From positions 1-35,308 of the IMG/VR virus record IMGVR_UViG_3300017740_000027: 35,308 nucleotides of DNA. One strand, 5' to 3'. This stretch comes from a virus. Of this stretch, positions 3,818 to 12,946 are shown one piece after another. The notes under the pieces were generated by a model. It saw only the letters and a program-made list of their open reading frames with translations. It did no database searches and had not been told where the DNA came from. How positions within the stretch are numbered: the first letter of the stretch is position 1; each line of letters begins with the position of its first letter. The translations under genes were made by a program, and so were the position numbers.

Positions 3818-6220
3818 TTATTGAACTGCTCGTTCAGATGTATTAATTTCTTGTCCTACTTGATTACCATTCATTTCTATAGTTGAAGATTTAGCTAATA
3901 TTTGCCTATTTACCCCTATTAAAGTTTGGATTTCTGATATTAGAACAGCATCTCTTCTAGCTCCTCCTCCTCGTCCAGATTTTTTCTCACCCATTAAATC
4001 AGTTCCTGCAACAATCTGATCATCAGGGTGAAGTTGTACTGTTCCAAATTCTCCAGATACTACTGGTCCTTTTTTAGGATCAATAACACCATCTTTTAAT
4101 GCAGCGTACATAGCTCCTGCCGCAACTAAACCTAAAGCTAAACCAATAGTAGCACCAATAGGATTAGAAACAAAAGCTGCAGCTACCCCACCAATTCTAG
4201 CTAAGGCTTTCATTTTTTCTTCTCTGGTTTCTTTTTTCTTTATTCCAAGCCCTATTGCAGATGCAATATTAGATCCTACTATAGCAGCTTGAGTTAAAAC
4301 ATAAAGACCTGATATTATTTTTACAGTTTTTGCTAATTTTCTAGCAAATCCATCAGAAGCCATTAAACCTTGAACCATTTCTAATATTGGAACTGCCATT
4401 TCAGCAAACATTTCTTGAACTCTTTCCATAGTAGCTGCAAATTGATCAGCTACGGATGCTGATTCTAATTGAGCTTTTAAATTTTCATCACTTATACCTT
4501 TTGAGGCTTCTTCATGAGATAAACCTTTTGCTCTATCTTCATTGTATTTTTGTTGAGCAGAGTCTAAACTATCAAATCCTGCTGCTCTAACAGCTTCTAA
4601 TTGTTCCTGCTCCTTAACCATTTCAGCTAATTGCTCTCTATTCATTCCTAAGGCCTTAGCTGCTTGTTCTTGTGCTATAACATTTTTAGTTTCAAAAGCA
4701 TTCATAATTGCCTTATTCCCTAAAACTTCTTCTGCTACCTTAGCCATATCTCCTTCTAAAGCCGCTTGTCTTGCTTTTTCTAGATTAATTTCTTGCCCTA
4801 ATAATAATTCTGCTTCAAGTTCTGCTTGTATTGAACTTTCAAAATCTAATAAACTAGAAGCTATACCCTCTACTCCTGCTAGATTTGTACCTAATGCTTT
4901 AGCAGCCATTACTTGGTTAGTTAATTCATCAAGATTCCCTTTAAAGGTTAATTGGAGGGATTTAGAAGATTTACCTATAGCATCTTGAACCTTTTTTATG
5001 CTCATTGTTAAACCTTTTTCTTTGTTTAACTGTATTACTTTTAGTTTTTGAGATTTTAAAATATCTTTTGCTCCTTTGCCTGTTTTTATAGACTGCATAG
5101 CAAGTAATTCTTGTGTTTCTGCAGACATTTTAGTTCTTAAAGCTATAGAAGTCATGTCAGCAGTTAATTCATTGCTGAATTTTACATTAGAACCCATTAA
5201 TTCATTTAATCTTCCTTGAGTTTCCAATAAACCTCTAGAACTAACTAAAATATCACCTGAATTTTGAGCTACTTCTATCATTTCATCTTTAAGCTTTAAA
5301 GTTTCTTTATAGGATATTCCTTGATTTTTAGCAAAATCTCCAGCTGCTTTATCAACTGCCATCATATTTGTTACAAGAAATCCTACAGATGCTTGGAACA
5401 TATTAGCTAAAGAAAAAGCTTCACCCATATTTTTAACTAGGTTTTTTATAGTTAAACCAAGCGCAGAAGATTTATTCTCAGCAGATACAAATTCTTTTTT
5501 TGCTTTTTCTATAGCAGATGCTATTCCTAAAGAGGGAAGTCCTGCTTTTTGTAAAGCTTTATCTAACCCCGCAGCAGCTTCACCAGCAAAACCTAATCCT
5601 TTTGTAAATTTATCTTCTAATTCAATTCGTTTTATTAATTGTTTTTCAAGATTGTCAAAAACTTTAGATTGGTCTCTTCTTATACCTGCAGCTGTCTGTA
5701 AAGCATCAGCTTCTTTATTATTTCCTTCTTCTCTTAATTTATTTACTTCAGCTTGTAATCTTTTTTCTTCTATTCCTCTTTTAGATATTATGCCCTTACT
5801 ATGTAATAAAGCTTTTGCTGCGTCAGAAGCTTGTTTTCTATTTGCTTTTATCTTTTCTTGCATAGATAAAAGTTGTTTTTTATTAAAGGATGAAATATTT
5901 GATTCTTCATTAGCTAGTTTATTAGCCTGAGCAGTCATACCCTTTAAACCTTTAACCATTTGGTTTTGTTTAGAGTATTGTTTAGAAAGTTCTCCTGTAA
6001 TAGCTTTTAGCTGGTCAGCCATGTCATTAAAGCTTCTATTAGCTTTTCTGACTTCTTCATTTATGTCTTGTTGGAGTTTTTTAAAATCCTCTTCAGCAGT
6101 TATTCCTTCTCTGATGTCTTCAGCTCTTCTTCTAAACCCAGCTGCTACTTTATCATTTAGTTCAACAGAATTTTGTAAAAGTTGATTAATTTTTTCTATT
6201 TCAGCAGCATTTTTAGACAT
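3818..6220 (-). CDS. Tail tape measure protein (800 aa)
   Basis: Sets tail length and occupies the tube lumen before DNA ejection. The N-terminal 220 residues are dominated by charged, Lys/Glu/Gln-rich helix, probably coiled coil. The middle is Ala-rich helix with a further coiled-coil stretch around residues 480-600. Two hydrophobic segments follow at about 640-665 (VLTQAAIVGSNIASAIGLGI) and 675-708 (NPIGATIGLALGLVAAGAMY), typical of tape measures that insert in the host membrane. The last 40 residues contain EMNGNQVG, an ending I recall from marine phage tape measures. It directly follows the chaperone pair, which is the standard tail order. T4 gp29 has 590 residues, so this tail may be longer. 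Confidence 0.85.
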   Translation of the reverse strand: MSKNAAEIEKINQLLQNSVELNDKVAAGFRRRAEDIREGITAEEDFKKLQQDINEEVRKANRSFNDMADQLKAITGELSKQYSKQNQMVKGLKGMTAQANKLANEESNISSFNKKQLLSMQEKIKANRKQASDAAKALLHSKGIISKRGIEEKRLQAEVNKLREEGNNKEADALQTAAGIRRDQSKVFDNLEKQLIKRIELEDKFTKGLGFAGEAAAGLDKALQKAGLPSLGIASAIEKAKKEFVSAENKSSALGLTIKNLVKNMGEAFSLANMFQASVGFLVTNMMAVDKAAGDFAKNQGISYKETLKLKDEMIEVAQNSGDILVSSRGLLETQGRLNELMGSNVKFSNELTADMTSIALRTKMSAETQELLAMQSIKTGKGAKDILKSQKLKVIQLNKEKGLTMSIKKVQDAIGKSSKSLQLTFKGNLDELTNQVMAAKALGTNLAGVEGIASSLLDFESSIQAELEAELLLGQEINLEKARQAALEGDMAKVAEEVLGNKAIMNAFETKNVIAQEQAAKALGMNREQLAEMVKEQEQLEAVRAAGFDSLDSAQQKYNEDRAKGLSHEEASKGISDENLKAQLESASVADQFAATMERVQEMFAEMAVPILEMVQGLMASDGFARKLAKTVKIISGLYVLTQAAIVGSNIASAIGLGIKKKETREEKMKALARIGGVAAAFVSNPIGATIGLALGLVAAGAMYAALKDGVIDPKKGPVVSGEFGTVQLHPDDQIVAGTDLMGEKKSGRGGGARRDAVLISEIQTLIGVNRQILAKSSTIEMNGNQVGQEINTSERAVQ

Positions 6221-6251: not shown

Positions 6252-6563
6252 CTATTTTTTAGCCCTTTGTGTAGTATAGCTTGATTTTTTAGATTGATCT
6301 TGAAATGCTTTTTTCATATGTTCTGGGAGAGGATCTCCCATATTTGCTGAAGTTGAATTTTGATCATTAGTAGCCTTTTTTAAAGCATCATTTTGACTTT
6401 TTAAGTCTTTACTAATTCTGTTTAAAGTAAATTTTCTTAACCATAGGGGCATATTATAAACAGTTTCATAATCAAATCCCCCATTTCCATAAAAAATTAT
6501 ATCATGGATATTTTCAAATATAGAAATTCTATATTTAGGAGTCAGGCCAAAGAAACCCGGCTG
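6252..6563 (-). CDS. Tail assembly chaperone extension, probably made by +1 frameshift from the gp26-like gene
   Basis: A conventional ATG at 6452 would give only 66 residues (MPLWLRKF...). The same frame is open upstream to a TGA at 6564-6566, and the extra stretch reads like protein: KYRISIFENIHDIIFYG, then NGGFDYETVYN, running straight into MPLWLRKF. No ATG, GTG or TTG start exists in this upstream stretch. The simplest reading is that ribosomes enter from the overlapping gp26-like gene by a +1 shift, giving a long chaperone isoform as in the G/GT pairs of many tailed phages. The C-terminus is Lys/Gln/Ser-rich. It sits between the gp26-like gene and the tape measure gene, where such chaperones belong. 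If no shift occurs, the 66-residue protein from 6452 is the alternative; T4 gp51 would be a possible counterpart. Confidence 0.65.
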   Translation of the reverse strand, partial: QPGFFGLTPKYRISIFENIHDIIFYGNGGFDYETVYNMPLWLRKFTLNRISKDLKSQNDALKKATNDQNSTSANMGDPLPEHMKKAFQDQSKKSSYTTQRAKK

Positions 6564-7272
6564 TCATAGGAACGACAGCACCCTCCTCTACACCATTTTC
6601 GCCCATATAATCAAATTTCATTTGAATATCAGGCTGATTTTCTCTAATATGTTCTCTAAGTGATCTAGAATCTCTAGCTAGCATATAGTTATCTACGAAA
6701 TCTCTAATTGTTTTATTTTCCGTTTCCCCATTAACTGACTGAATTATATATTTTAATCTAGTAGACATATCAGGAGATGATTGTTTATCTAACTTTTTAA
6801 GACCTTTAACTTCAGACTCTATATTTTTTTCATCTCTATTAGTTAATATTTTATAGGTAATAGCTGTATTAGTATGAGGTAATGTATAAGCAAATTCATT
6901 TTTTCCTTCTATCATATCGCCCTCTTTTAAAAATTTAGTTTCTAGTTCAGTTAAATCTATTGAAACATTATCTCCTTTGTATATAAAATCATAATCTTTA
7001 CCATACCCTAAAATACGTGCAGCTACTAAAATAGCATTTCTATCTCCTACTATCATGTCATCATAATTTACTTTAGAAATTACTAAGGATTTTAATAATT
7101 TATCTATTACTATTCCTTGTTTAATATAGTTTTGGTTGGTTAAAATATCTTCTTCTTTAGCAGTCATATATTTCATTTCTACTTTACCTTCAGATAAAGG
7201 ATTATCTTTAGGGTATACTAAACCTCTTGATGGTAATTCTATAGTTTCTGTTGGGAATTTAAATTCGCTCAT
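6535..7272 (-). CDS. gp26: Tail/baseplate assembly chaperone, T4 gp26 (T4_baseplate) family (245 aa)
   Basis: The N-terminus carries ETIELPSRGLVYPKDNPL, followed by MKYMTAKEEDILTNQNYIKQG and an Asp/Val-rich segment ending ILVAARILGYG. This matches what I know of the T4 gp26-like family, often found between the tube and tape measure genes and behaving like a tail assembly chaperone. It is somewhat longer than T4 gp26 (about 208). The last codons (TTT CTT TGG CCT GAC TCC TAA) overlap the +1 frame of the next gene. Upstream are a strong terminator and a TATTTATAA motif 29 bases before the ATG, so it probably heads its own transcript. Confidence 0.75.
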   Translation of the reverse strand: MSEFKFPTETIELPSRGLVYPKDNPLSEGKVEMKYMTAKEEDILTNQNYIKQGIVIDKLLKSLVISKVNYDDMIVGDRNAILVAARILGYGKDYDFIYKGDNVSIDLTELETKFLKEGDMIEGKNEFAYTLPHTNTAITYKILTNRDEKNIESEVKGLKKLDKQSSPDMSTRLKYIIQSVNGETENKTIRDFVDNYMLARDSRSLREHIRENQPDIQMKFDYMGENGVEEGAVVPMTAGFLWPDS

Positions 7273-7370: not shown

Positions 7371-7859
7371 TTAGAAATTTAATACTGCGTAGTCTATTGC
7401 TACTTCAATTGATAAGTTAATTGCTGTATCTACTGTGTCCCAATTATACTCTCCAAAGTTAGTATTTACAATAAATGCACCTTTTAATATCCATTCTGAA
7501 ACAATATCACCTACAGGTCCTAATACATTGATAGTTAAATCTTTTTTATAAAAATCAGAATAACCATCTCTACCTGTTACTGATTCATGATGTAATCTTA
7601 CCCATTCCATAGTTGCTTGTGCACCTGAAGGAGTGATTGGATCAAATAACGTCATTGTAACGTTTTGCCATATTGATTTACCTTTAACTTTTCTTTCAAC
7701 ATTAATGTGATTTAAAGTTACTACACCTTGTTGTAATGTTACAGCACTAACTTGTTTAATTAGGTAGCTAGGCATCCCATCCATGTATAGGATAAACCTA
7801 TTCGCTTGTTTGGGTTCAAACGCTGTATAAAATATTTCATTGGGATCTATTACTGCCAT
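7371..7859 (-). CDS. gp19: Tail tube protein, T4 gp19-like (162 aa)
   Basis: Forms the hexameric rings of the inner tail tube. Its length matches T4 gp19 (163). The N-terminus MAVIDPNEIFYTAFEPKQAN is followed by RFILYMDGMPSYLIKQVSAV and the VERKVKGKSIW segment, which is the usual start of the tube beta-barrel. The mid-region PITPSGAQATMEWVRLHHES and an ending of alternating hydrophobic residues (INLSIEVAIDYAVLNF) also fit the gp19 family. It follows the sheath gene and has its own upstream motif and a strong terminator, consistent with the high copy number this protein needs. Confidence 0.92.
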   Translation of the reverse strand: MAVIDPNEIFYTAFEPKQANRFILYMDGMPSYLIKQVSAVTLQQGVVTLNHINVERKVKGKSIWQNVTMTLFDPITPSGAQATMEWVRLHHESVTGRDGYSDFYKKDLTINVLGPVGDIVSEWILKGAFIVNTNFGEYNWDTVDTAINLSIEVAIDYAVLNF

Positions 7860-10297: not shown

Positions 10298-10936
10298 TTA
10301 TTTTTTAAACCATATTAACTCATATGGTCTTTTTGATATTAATATATTTTTTCTGTTTGTTTGTTTTTTAATTTTAGAAAAAGGAATATATTTTACATTT
10401 TTTTCCCAATTTAAGGGTTTTAATACATCTTCAATTTTTTCAATTTTTGAAGCATTATCATTAAAATAAGAAAATATTCCTCCTTTATTTAATATTTTAT
10501 CCACTATATTACCAAACATAGCCCACTGTTTTTTATCTCTATTAAAAGTGTAAGTATCAAAATATATAGCATCAAATTTTTTATTTTTTGATATAAATTG
10601 ATTAACTATGTCTTCCCAATTTCCTAAATGTAAAAAAGATGTTTGATTAAATTTATTTTTTATTGCTAAATCATATATTTGAGGATGAATTTCAATTATA
10701 TGATGTTCTTGTGGTTTAAAATTCCTTATGTAATTATCTATTATTCCTAACCCAAATCCTATATTTAATACTGTACCTTTATTTTGGCATAGTATTTTAG
10801 CAGATTCTTTCATTATAAGATCTTCATCAGTACTCATAATATCTACTACGACATGGGGAGAAGATGAGTATAAAACTCCATCTATAATTTCAATACTATT
10901 ATTTAAAAACTCTTTTTCTAAAAAATCAGATTTCAT
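10298..10936 (-). CDS. SAM-dependent methyltransferase resembling guanidinoacetate/arginine (RMT2-type) methyltransferases (212 aa)
   Basis: Class I methyltransferase. Motif I is VLNIGFGLGI (residues 56-65). The following HHIIEIHP (78-85) ends strand 2 with the acidic residue expected to bind the SAM ribose. FLHLGNWEDI (101-110), FDAIYFDTYTF (121-131) and LNKGGIFSYFN (149-159) follow. This order closely matches guanidinoacetate N-methyltransferase as I remember it (VLEVGFGMAI, HWIIECND, GLWEDV, FDGILYDTYPL, LKPGGVLTYCN), including the Asp of the YDTY motif (here D127) that holds the guanidino group. Acidic residues at 37-39 may replace the other substrate carboxylate. The target is unknown: a guanidino compound, or an arginine in a virion protein. 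The start overlaps the end of the S74 fibre gene by 11 bases, so co-translation is likely. Confidence 0.75.
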   Translation of the reverse strand: MKSDFLEKEFLNNSIEIIDGVLYSSSPHVVVDIMSTDEDLIMKESAKILCQNKGTVLNIGFGLGIIDNYIRNFKPQEHHIIEIHPQIYDLAIKNKFNQTSFLHLGNWEDIVNQFISKNKKFDAIYFDTYTFNRDKKQWAMFGNIVDKILNKGGIFSYFNDNASKIEKIEDVLKPLNWEKNVKYIPFSKIKKQTNRKNILISKRPYELIWFKK

Positions 10937-11570
10937 AAAAATCTACATCAACTTTATTATAATCTACTAAATAATATCCTTCTTTATCTGTTATTACAGC
11001 TTCAGATTTATTTAATTTGATTAAATCTTGCGCCATAGTACCTATGTATCTTCCTTCTCCATCAGATTTATTAATATATTCAAATTCATATATTGGTATA
11101 CCTGATTTAGAATATGTTCTAAATACTATATTACGTTTCAATCTTCTGTCTGATCTACCACAGTTTGTTGGGTTTGAAGAAATTCCACTTTCTACATTTA
11201 TAGATTGACCAGAATTAATTCTGTAAAATCCATCACTTAATGCTGTTGTTCCACTTGAATCTGAATAAACATTATCATTTGCTACAGGGTAAGTTCCAGA
11301 ACCATCATGGTAACCTGTTCCTCCTGTTCCTCCTTCAGAACAAGCACTAGCTGCACTTCCTGCTGGTTCTGTAGGATCTTGCATCCCAAATGATGTTAAG
11401 GTAACTCCACTTTGACCATAAAAATCATTTGCTAGTTCTACCTCATTACCTGCTGTAATTGCTGATGATAATTTGGTACCTAAATTTGATAACGAAATAT
11501 TAGTTGAAGACACACTAAATTCAGTTGCAACTGCAGTCATTGTCATTTGTCCAGAGCTAGGTAATGCCAT
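10926..11570 (-). CDS. Short fibre/tip protein with C-terminal S74-type chaperone domain (214 aa)
   Basis: The N-terminus MALPSSGQMTMTAVATEFSV with following SLSNLG resembles a repeat unit common in marine phage and flavobacterial surface proteins. Residues about 75-120 form a Gly/Asp/Tyr-rich segment (GTGYHDGSGTYPVANDNVYS) typical of small beta modules. From residue 140 comes an S74-like intramolecular chaperone: SDRRLKRNIV with the Ser and Lys of the self-cleavage site, later GTMAQDL, and an ending YLVDYNKVDV. At about 75 residues this domain is short and lacks the usual long C-terminal helix. The ATG overlaps the stop of the 458-residue fibre as TAATG. It is probably a trimeric tip; whether it self-cleaves is not known. 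Confidence 0.75.
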   Translation of the reverse strand: MALPSSGQMTMTAVATEFSVSSTNISLSNLGTKLSSAITAGNEVELANDFYGQSGVTLTSFGMQDPTEPAGSAASACSEGGTGGTGYHDGSGTYPVANDNVYSDSSGTTALSDGFYRINSGQSINVESGISSNPTNCGRSDRRLKRNIVFRTYSKSGIPIYEFEYINKSDGEGRYIGTMAQDLIKLNKSEAVITDKEGYYLVDYNKVDVDFYEI

Positions 11571-12946
11571 TATTTAGATTTTTTTAATTCTTCTATTTCA
11601 GCCTTTAATTCTTTAATTGATTCAATCAATAATGGAACTATCTTTTCATATTTAACTGCTTTATAACCATTATCTCTCGTTTGAACTATTTCAGGAATTA
11701 TTTTTTCAACTTCTTGTGCTATTACTCCTACATCATGTCCTTCATTTTCATGTATTCCTTCTTTTGGTATCCAATCAAATTCTACCCCATTTATTTTATC
11801 TAATTTTTCTAATGGACTTTCTATAGTTTTAATATTTTCTTTTAATCTTTTATCTGAAGAGTAAAATGCTACAACATCATTAGTTGCTCTAATTAAACCT
11901 GTAGTTGATCCTGGTGCTGTACCTACTCCTAAAGATGGGGTTTGAATACCACTAGTAGAAAGTGATAATCTAGATGCACCACTAACACTAAATTCCATTA
12001 TAGCATAAGAAGCATGTTTATATATTCCTATATCATTATCATTTGTAAATCTTACAGCAGGGGAACTTGCAGTTCCATTTCCTACTTTCATAAATGTTGT
12101 AACAACAGCTCCTGAATTAGTTGAATTAGTTACATCTCCATTTACAAATAAACCAAGAGCAGTTCCCCCATATGTAAGATTACTAGAACCTTCTACAGTT
12201 GTTGAATTAGTAAATGTTGCTATTTGATTATCTGCTGGGGTACCTGTTATGTTTACATCTCCGGTACCATACCCATAACCTAATATTTTGTCTTGAACCG
12301 CAGCTGATGTCATAATATGAGAATCGTCATCTGTAAATTCACCACTATCATCTATACCAGTGATAGAATTACTATCTAAAACAATTCCAGCACCTTGTGC
12401 AAGACTTATTGATGTTCCAGCAGTTAAAGTGTTTGTAACTGTTACACTAGCTGGGAAAGTTGCTAGTTTAGTATCTCCATCAAAAGTTACAGCGGTACCA
12501 GCTTGACCAGCATTATTTCTAGTATCAATTTTTAAACCTACTTTAACATTTTCATCAGTAGCTCCTGCCTGTATATATGAAAAAGGATATGTACCATTAT
12601 ATCTTTGGATATTAAATTTATCTTGACCATTAGTTGTTCCAACAATAACACTACTACTAAATGTTTTATTCCCACCAATAGTTTGTGCTCCTGATGTTCT
12701 TACAACTGTAGAATCTACAGTTAATGTTCCCGTATTTGTTATAGGACCTCCACTTAAACCATCCCCTGAGGCTATAGAGGTTACTGTACCTCCTCCACCA
12801 CCAAAAGATCCAGTTAATTTAATATTATTATTTGTGTCTAAAGTTAAAACTTTAGTTCCAGTATTATCTTCTGTAAGACTTGTTAATTTTAATGTGGTAA
12901 GTTCTCCAGCACCACCATTAAGTATGATTTTTTTCCAGTTTGGCAT
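11570..12946 (-). CDS. Tail fibre with C-terminal S74 intramolecular chaperone (458 aa)
   Basis: The N-terminus MPNWKKIILNGGAGELTTLK is shared in pattern with the 354- and 391-residue fibres, so it probably attaches to the same virion site. The middle is a Gly/Thr/Ser-rich shaft (SIASGDGLSGGPITNTGTL). The C-terminal 96 residues are a clear S74 (endosialidase chaperone) domain: SSDKRLKENI from residue 363 with the self-cleavage Ser (364) and Lys (369), GHDVGVIAQEV, YKAVKYEKIVPLL, then a charged coiled-coil helix. Such domains help the fibre trimerise and are then released. The leader is long and structured (see the RNA feature), unlike those of other genes here. Confidence 0.88.
   Translation of the reverse strand: MPNWKKIILNGGAGELTTLKLTSLTEDNTGTKVLTLDTNNNIKLTGSFGGGGGTVTSIASGDGLSGGPITNTGTLTVDSTVVRTSGAQTIGGNKTFSSSVIVGTTNGQDKFNIQRYNGTYPFSYIQAGATDENVKVGLKIDTRNNAGQAGTAVTFDGDTKLATFPASVTVTNTLTAGTSISLAQGAGIVLDSNSITGIDDSGEFTDDDSHIMTSAAVQDKILGYGYGTGDVNITGTPADNQIATFTNSTTVEGSSNLTYGGTALGLFVNGDVTNSTNSGAVVTTFMKVGNGTASSPAVRFTNDNDIGIYKHASYAIMEFSVSGASRLSLSTSGIQTPSLGVGTAPGSTTGLIRATNDVVAFYSSDKRLKENIKTIESPLEKLDKINGVEFDWIPKEGIHENEGHDVGVIAQEVEKIIPEIVQTRDNGYKAVKYEKIVPLLIESIKELKAEIEELKKSK

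Follow-up and report, generated by a model that had tools for sequence, protein, structure and literature searches.

In phage lambda, the tail assembly proteins gpG and gpGT share their N-terminus, and the long form arises by a -1 frameshift close to where G ends (3'), with both genes located between those of the major tail protein and the tape measure. A review (PMC5009743) describes this G/GT pair and regards the frameshifting as a conserved trait of long-tailed phages, T4 being the exception. According to the same source, the myovirus HSTV-2 very likely uses a +1 shift. For T4, gp26 and gp51 both appear in a list of hub assembly chaperones, while the function of gp51 is called unknown in the same work (PMC3004832). 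According to PMC3037559, the gp51 of cyanophages and of marine vibriophage comes without its first ~200 residues. The record of Acinetobacter phage Stupor (MN662249) labels both gp26 and gp51 as 'tape measure protein assembly chaperone', i.e., the chaperone idea already exists. In searches of an open-access library, no paper turned up that reports a frameshift in the T4 gp26 family.

Here, we study a gp26-like gene and its overlapping +1 frame in a virus record from IMG/VR with 35308 bases (the window). The kind of system is already known, while the direction, the site and the family of the frameshift are novel.

Results

The features of the locus are collected in Table 1. The gene order of the window is tail tube, G, T, tape measure, i.e., G and T are flanked by the major tail tube gene and the tape measure gene, as is typical for frameshifted chaperone pairs. 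The tail tube assignment is based on the profile phrog_4542 (E=2.7e-17) and on 56% identity to the counterpart in Flavobacterium phage immuto; the tape measure assignment relies on the annotated immuto tape measure protein (28% identity over 618 columns, E=6e-52). G itself is matched by the 'baseplate hub' profile phrog_150 (E=2e-9, residues 4-224) and is 61% identical to the 'baseplate hub subunit' of immuto. A relation to the T4 gp26 family had been proposed in a preliminary description of this DNA, which the phrog_150 match corroborates and the relations reported below extend. The Pfam family PF12322 (T4_baseplate) covers T4 gp26 and gp51 as well as LIS04, Sag, RM378 and RAS14; window G is not listed there at the gathering score, the window type being divergent.

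Table 1. Positions of the frameshift features and their neighbouring genes within the window.
Feature	Position	Strand	Remarks
gp19-like tail tube gene, next upstream of G	7371..7859	-	phrog_4542 and immuto matches
G, gp26-like upstream gene	6535..7272	-	245 aa, stop codon included; phrog_150 and immuto matches
+1-frame ORF, T domain	6252..6563	-	103 open codons, stop included; homologues in relatives
Conserved shift region TTT-CTT-TGG-CCT-GAC	6541..6555	-	codon conservation in 77/77 unbiased window-type loci
TAA ending the short form (0-frame)	6535..6537	-	distance and identity vary among relatives
First ATG of the +1 frame	6450..6452	-	upstream coding sequence conserved; Phe here in immuto
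Tape-measure-like gene, downstream neighbour	3818..6220	-	800 aa; homology to immuto tape measure protein

From 6563 to 6255, the +1 frame stays open, and its stop follows at 6254-6252. The preliminary description had reported an overlap of both frames from 6563 to 6535 as well as 37 codons without any start before the ATG at 6452; we find both at these coordinates, with neither ATG, GTG nor TTG in the 37 codons preceding the ATG (6452-6450). Elsewhere in the window, inspection by eye showed stretches of the type SDRRLK/SDKRLKENI, as typically seen in S74 intramolecular chaperone domains, in both of two adjoining structural ORFs (10926-12946), and a methyltransferase-like ORF within the tail genes (10298-10936).

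We studied whether the overlap is found in relatives. Searching IMG/VR with the +1 peptide, we obtained 248 relatives and kept the best 80; all of these 80, selected via the +1 peptide, show the same +1 overlap with a gp26-like ORF. Because of this selection, we sampled a second time based on the upstream protein alone, using two scans (window G and the G of LR756508) that provided 76 distinct usable genes. Here, 74/76 distinct loci carry T in the overlapping +1 frame together with the site YTT-TGG-CCT. As in known chaperone pairs, the second frame overlaps G without a start of its own, and a conserved shift site lies towards the 3' end of G. In the two other loci (L309, L314), T is a separate ORF in another frame with its own ATG and the site is lost. 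Both keep F-L-W/Y-P-D in the 0-frame, but the codons have drifted (TTC-CTT-TGG-CCA-GAT and TTC-TTG-TAT-CCT-GAC). Since they branch beside immuto and within the +1 group in the tree of G domains, we consider their separate T genes to be secondary losses. Judged by their sequences, they form a natural control: with a separate start, the site and the wobble constraint are gone.

To characterize the site, we used the 77 unbiased window-type loci in which it is defined. The loci are kin, such that their counts are not independent trials, yet they cover many lineages: the first codon is TTY (TTT 65, TTC 12), the second YTT (TTT 73, CTT 4), the third TGG (73) or TTC (4) and the fourth CCT in all 77 loci. 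Elsewhere in the same genes, CCT provides only 32% of the Pro codons. Likewise, 66 of 67 Asp codons within the overlap are GAC compared to 19% elsewhere in these genes, and the Gly codon of the +1 frame is GGC in all 73 TGG loci, while GGC accounts for 4% of the Gly codons in T. These bases are fixed exactly as demanded by FF-G-L-T in the +1 frame, i.e., the +1 frame is read from TGG onwards.

The one position that allows the P-site tRNA to re-pair throughout the 77 loci is YTT, the A site being occupied by TGG (or TTC). While a slip at the first Phe codon is impossible in loci with TTC-TTT-TGG, those with TTT-CTT-TGG, among them the window, would allow it at either codon. The comparison of relatives thus points to TTT-CTT-TGG-CCT (6555-6544) as the location of the shift. 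The preliminary description had listed three candidates, namely TTT-C (6555), CTT-TGG-C (6552) and TCC-TAA-A (6540). All three are present in the window's overlap; the comparison favors CTT-TGG-C, while TTT-C is available in a subset of the relatives only. A stop-dependent shift at TCC-TAA-A is excluded since both the kind of stop (TAG 39, TAA 24, TGA 14) and its distance (4-7 codons) vary over the 77 loci; furthermore, constraint on the +1 frame sets in before the stop.

The +1 site of prfB, CUU_UGA_C, lets a P-site CTT slip to TTT and features a GGG three bases before the CTT. The window and immuto would similarly re-pair a P-site CTT on TTT, and their A-site codon also begins with TG. In contrast to prfB, the A-site codon is TGG (Trp) or TTC among the relatives and not a stop, and the P-site codon is TTT in most of them. 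No Shine-Dalgarno-like stimulator was found within 20 nt in any of the 77 loci; a GGG three bases before CTT is present in the window and is not kept by its relatives. The window site therefore shows neither the A-site stop nor the conserved stimulator of prfB-type +1 sites. With regard to downstream RNA structure, the folding signal is weak and inconsistent (mean z of -1.1 over 16 clusters), predicted structures differ between loci, and the window's hairpin AAATATAGA-ATT-TCTATATTT is not seen in the more distant relatives that were folded.

We also compared substitutions in the stretch from the 0-frame stop to the position of the window's ATG for 1213 closer pairs. Differences at +1 codon positions 3, 1 and 2 relate as 13273:5162:3298, and 56% of the codon differences are synonymous compared to 19% expected. 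Together with the conserved peptide FFGLTPEYR...GGYDWETVYN, this substitution pattern indicates that purifying selection acts on the +1 frame before its first ATG. The coding character of this stretch had been claimed before, with an alignment of relatives and a selection analysis suggested as checks; in both the claim holds, as the upstream peptide and one slippery site are conserved.

These data also bear on alternative explanations of the overlap. If T were a separate downstream gene that is started at ATG 6452 via reinitiation or coupling, no frameshift would be needed. Such a start has its precedents: the window does have the ATG, 76/77 loci encode Met at this position, L309 and L314 really use an ATG-initiated T, and TAATG stop-start overlaps or close starts precede T in Vibrio D531, phiA8-29 and Cygsa01. 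It does not account for the selection on the peptide upstream of the ATG, however, nor for the 57/77 loci that offer neither ATG, GTG nor TTG between site and ATG position, nor for immuto, where Phe replaces Met; and loci with a truly separate start have lost the site and the wobble constraint. We rate a separate T gene as highly improbable, and the ATG at 6452-6450 is probably an internal codon (VYN-MPLWLRKF) rather than a start. Transcriptional slippage, which would delete one U from the T run and thereby produce a continuous GT message, fits the seven-T runs of 57/77 loci and the eight-T runs of 4/77. Yet, the runs of 16/77 unbiased loci are just 3-4 T long (TTTCTTTGG, TTCTTTTGG) with an unchanged overlap, and these include the window's own type and immuto. 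Slippage cannot explain such loci, whereas one ribosomal mechanism covers all of them; conservation also extends to the TGG-CCT codons beyond the run, and we find slippage very unlikely. For a gene split by a sequencing error or a recent frameshift mutation, nothing speaks except the overlap itself. A single-base error had been named as a possible refutation, but contigs from other samples (L001, L002, L004) carry an overlap identical to that of the window, which excludes it. The arrangement is furthermore shared by about 195 distinct +1 genes, a total that includes the motif-selected loci L081-L200, which entered the tree and were left out of the site statistics due to circularity. We thus consider a split gene to be refuted.

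A further alternative accepts the frameshift and questions the role of its products, which would be parts of the baseplate hub or hub-assembly factors instead of tape-measure chaperones. Some studies assign T4 gp26 to the hub, it is reviewed as a hub assembly chaperone (PMC3004832), and the family is annotated as 'baseplate hub' in the records. Against this, a frameshifted short/long pair directly before the tape measure is the hallmark of tail assembly chaperones, T4 gp51 is required yet absent from the particle (PMC3004832), and the chaperone label of the Stupor record applies to both proteins. A hub role hence appears unlikely to us, and tape-measure chaperones remain our preferred reading of the pair.

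Next to the window type, we investigated the wider T4 gp26 family. Both T4 gp26 (E=7e-71) and T4 gp51 (E=3e-84) belong to phrog_150, and gp51 consists of a gp26-like domain with a C-terminal extension. At the T4 locus (L208, 5803-7229), the two are seen as paralogues, with the extra C-terminal domain on gp51. A T-rich Phe codon site, at which gp26 is overlapped by a following -1-frame ORF, is found in P-SSM5 (cyanophage), phiAS5 (Aeromonas), VmeM-32 and phi-Grn1 (both Vibrio), LG08 and RL38J1 (both Rhizobium), Melnitz-3 (Methylophilales), 7757 (Desulfovibrio) and the jumbo phages RAS14 and XacN1; an example of the cyanophage gp26/gp51 overlap is found in L209 (5660-5866). The heptamer T_TTT_TTC is invariant among 63/63 distinct P-SSM5-type loci, with TTT making up 86% of the Phe codons elsewhere. 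These loci conserve the -1 peptide FFR(I/V)SM and have an ATG close by, where reinitiation may be an alternative to a -1 shift. In P-SSM5, the short ORF is annotated as 'base plate hub assembly catalyst' (gp51).

The cyanophage pair has G and T domains homologous to those of the window and overlaps at the equivalent Phe-Phe codons where G ends, but in the -1 frame at the invariant heptamer instead of +1 at YTT-TGG-CCT. In profile comparisons, cyanophage T and the C-termini of T-even gp51 match with 98%. Fused alignments provide 99.1% for window type vs. cyanophage type (279 columns, through T) and 99.8% for cyanophage type vs. T-even gp51. Window-type T alone reaches a probability of 61% against cyanophage T and, with 13.7%, only a weak direct match to the gp51 C-terminus, such that the link from the window to gp51 rests on the cyanophage intermediate. 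By homology, the 'gp51' of T4-like cyanophages thus reads as the C-terminal T domain of a homologous fusion made by a -1 shift at U_UUU_UUC.

Overlaps in the +1 frame also occur at other sites, namely in Rhodothermus RM378 (TTT-TTT-TGG-AAT), Streptococcus SagM-GXN1 (TTC-TTT-CGT), Listeria LIS04 (TTT-TTT-AGT) and Bacillus SP-15-type phages (TTT-TTT-CAC). In L205 (3983-4732) and L298, such overlaps come with TTT-CGT. Influenza PA-X has this codon pair at its +1 site (UUU_CGU), as named in the title of a reference of PMC5009743. A slippery heptamer before T is absent from Vibrio D531 (L321), phiA8-29 (L322) and Cygsa01 (L326); D531 and Cygsa01 show the TAATG overlap, while phiA8-29 is among the coupled or close-start loci.

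The tree set spans 81 G clusters at about 62% identity. Its 81 G domains separate into two sides (100/100 support), one with the -1, coupled and duplicated forms and one with the +1 forms and RAS14/XacN1. Within the -1 side, gp26 and gp51 of T4 type form one clade (100/97), for which duplication is the simplest origin. The AU test does not reject that the +1 direction arose once (p-AU 0.44), and several branches of this tree are long; since a single switch fits, we do not claim repeated direction switching within the +1 side.

Finally, we predicted the structure of the window fusion with AlphaFold (P0001, 339 aa). An alignment that mixed rows of G with those of T put the latter in the wrong place and was replaced by alignment A2. 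The resulting model has a mean pLDDT of 81, with high values for G and low values for the junction and the T part. Foldseek matches in BFVD are T4-like baseplate hub proteins (SP-15 5.8e-17). The PDB search with the predicted fusion (Foldseek, E<=0.001) matched no chain, known chaperones included, and a phmmer search for a solved chaperone gave no relevant match; we thus do not file window G as a homologue of lambda G.

Discussion

The marine window phage very probably makes two protein forms from one gene, with some of its ribosomes skipping a base at a conserved spot. That this deeply conserved +1 programmed frameshift is real in the window group, we consider very probable. With strong confidence, we read the locus as a G/GT-type tail assembly chaperone pair made by a +1 slip at CTT/TGG, which is in accordance with the long chaperone proposed in the preliminary description and is the reading best supported by peptide, site and gene position. 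That the product of the frameshifted gene is a chaperone of tail assembly and belongs to the T4 gp26 family, we consider very likely. Comparing the sequences demonstrates the conserved overlap, the dual coding, the site, the gene order and the homology.

The mechanism we infer is ribosomal. Most ribosomes would terminate at the stop of the gp26-like gene and yield the short form G of 245 aa. A presumed minority would slip by +1 while CTT (6552-6550) occupies the P site and TGG (6549-6547) the A site; the tRNA on CTT, our candidate for the slipping one, would re-pair on TTT, and reading would resume at GGC and continue into the T domain. The product would be a fusion GT of about 339 aa. For immuto, a junction with GVSFLGLTPEYR is predicted for a slip on CTT and one with GVSFFGLTPEYR for a slip on TTT. 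By analogy to lambda, G would act as a chaperone that coats the tape measure protein, while GT would recruit tail tube subunits; these putative binding partners are suggested by the gene position.

The pair resembles lambda gpG/gpGT in its shared N-terminus, in a frameshift shortly before the 3' end of G and in its genomic location. It differs in direction (+1 vs. -1), in belonging to the T4 gp26 family without a structural match to a solved chain, and in a T that follows a YTT-TGG site. With HSTV-2 (PMC5009743), it shares the very likely +1 direction, the tail chaperone and the contractile-tailed virus, but the host domain is different. Compared to T4, window G is likewise part of phrog_150 and T corresponds to the gp51 extension via the cyanophage proteins; T4, however, has two genes on opposite strands and no frameshift where the window has one gene and a +1 shift. 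We regard it as likely that T4 has a G/GT pair as well, with gp26 as G and gp51 as GT, in which duplication probably replaced an ancestral -1 frameshift. In this joint reading, the family would make the fusion in four ways: by a -1 shift in cyanophages, schizoT-evens, Rhizobium and some jumbo phages (sites like U_UUU_UUC), by a +1 shift at YUU_UGG (window group, with several distant phages at related sites), by stop-start coupling or a separate ATG, and by duplication.

The finding implies that the T4 gp26 family carries a deeply conserved frameshift, against the 'except T4' of the review (PMC5009743), with a +1 site that relies on a sense codon, that of Trp. It would explain the missing first ~200 residues of cyanophage gp51, noted unexplained in the accessible part of PMC3037559. 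In the inspected isolate records, the T domain is mis-annotated or truncated, i.e., it appears either as a short ORF of no relation or under the name 'baseplate hub assembly catalyst'. Natural series of this kind are rare: within the family, the same two proteins would have switched between a -1 shift, a +1 shift, a separate start and a duplicated gene. For T4 gp26 and gp51, the locus offers a concrete role that can be tested, namely as tape-measure chaperones, and the window's arrangement, kept in hundreds of relatives, suggests how T4 fits the same scheme with two genes.
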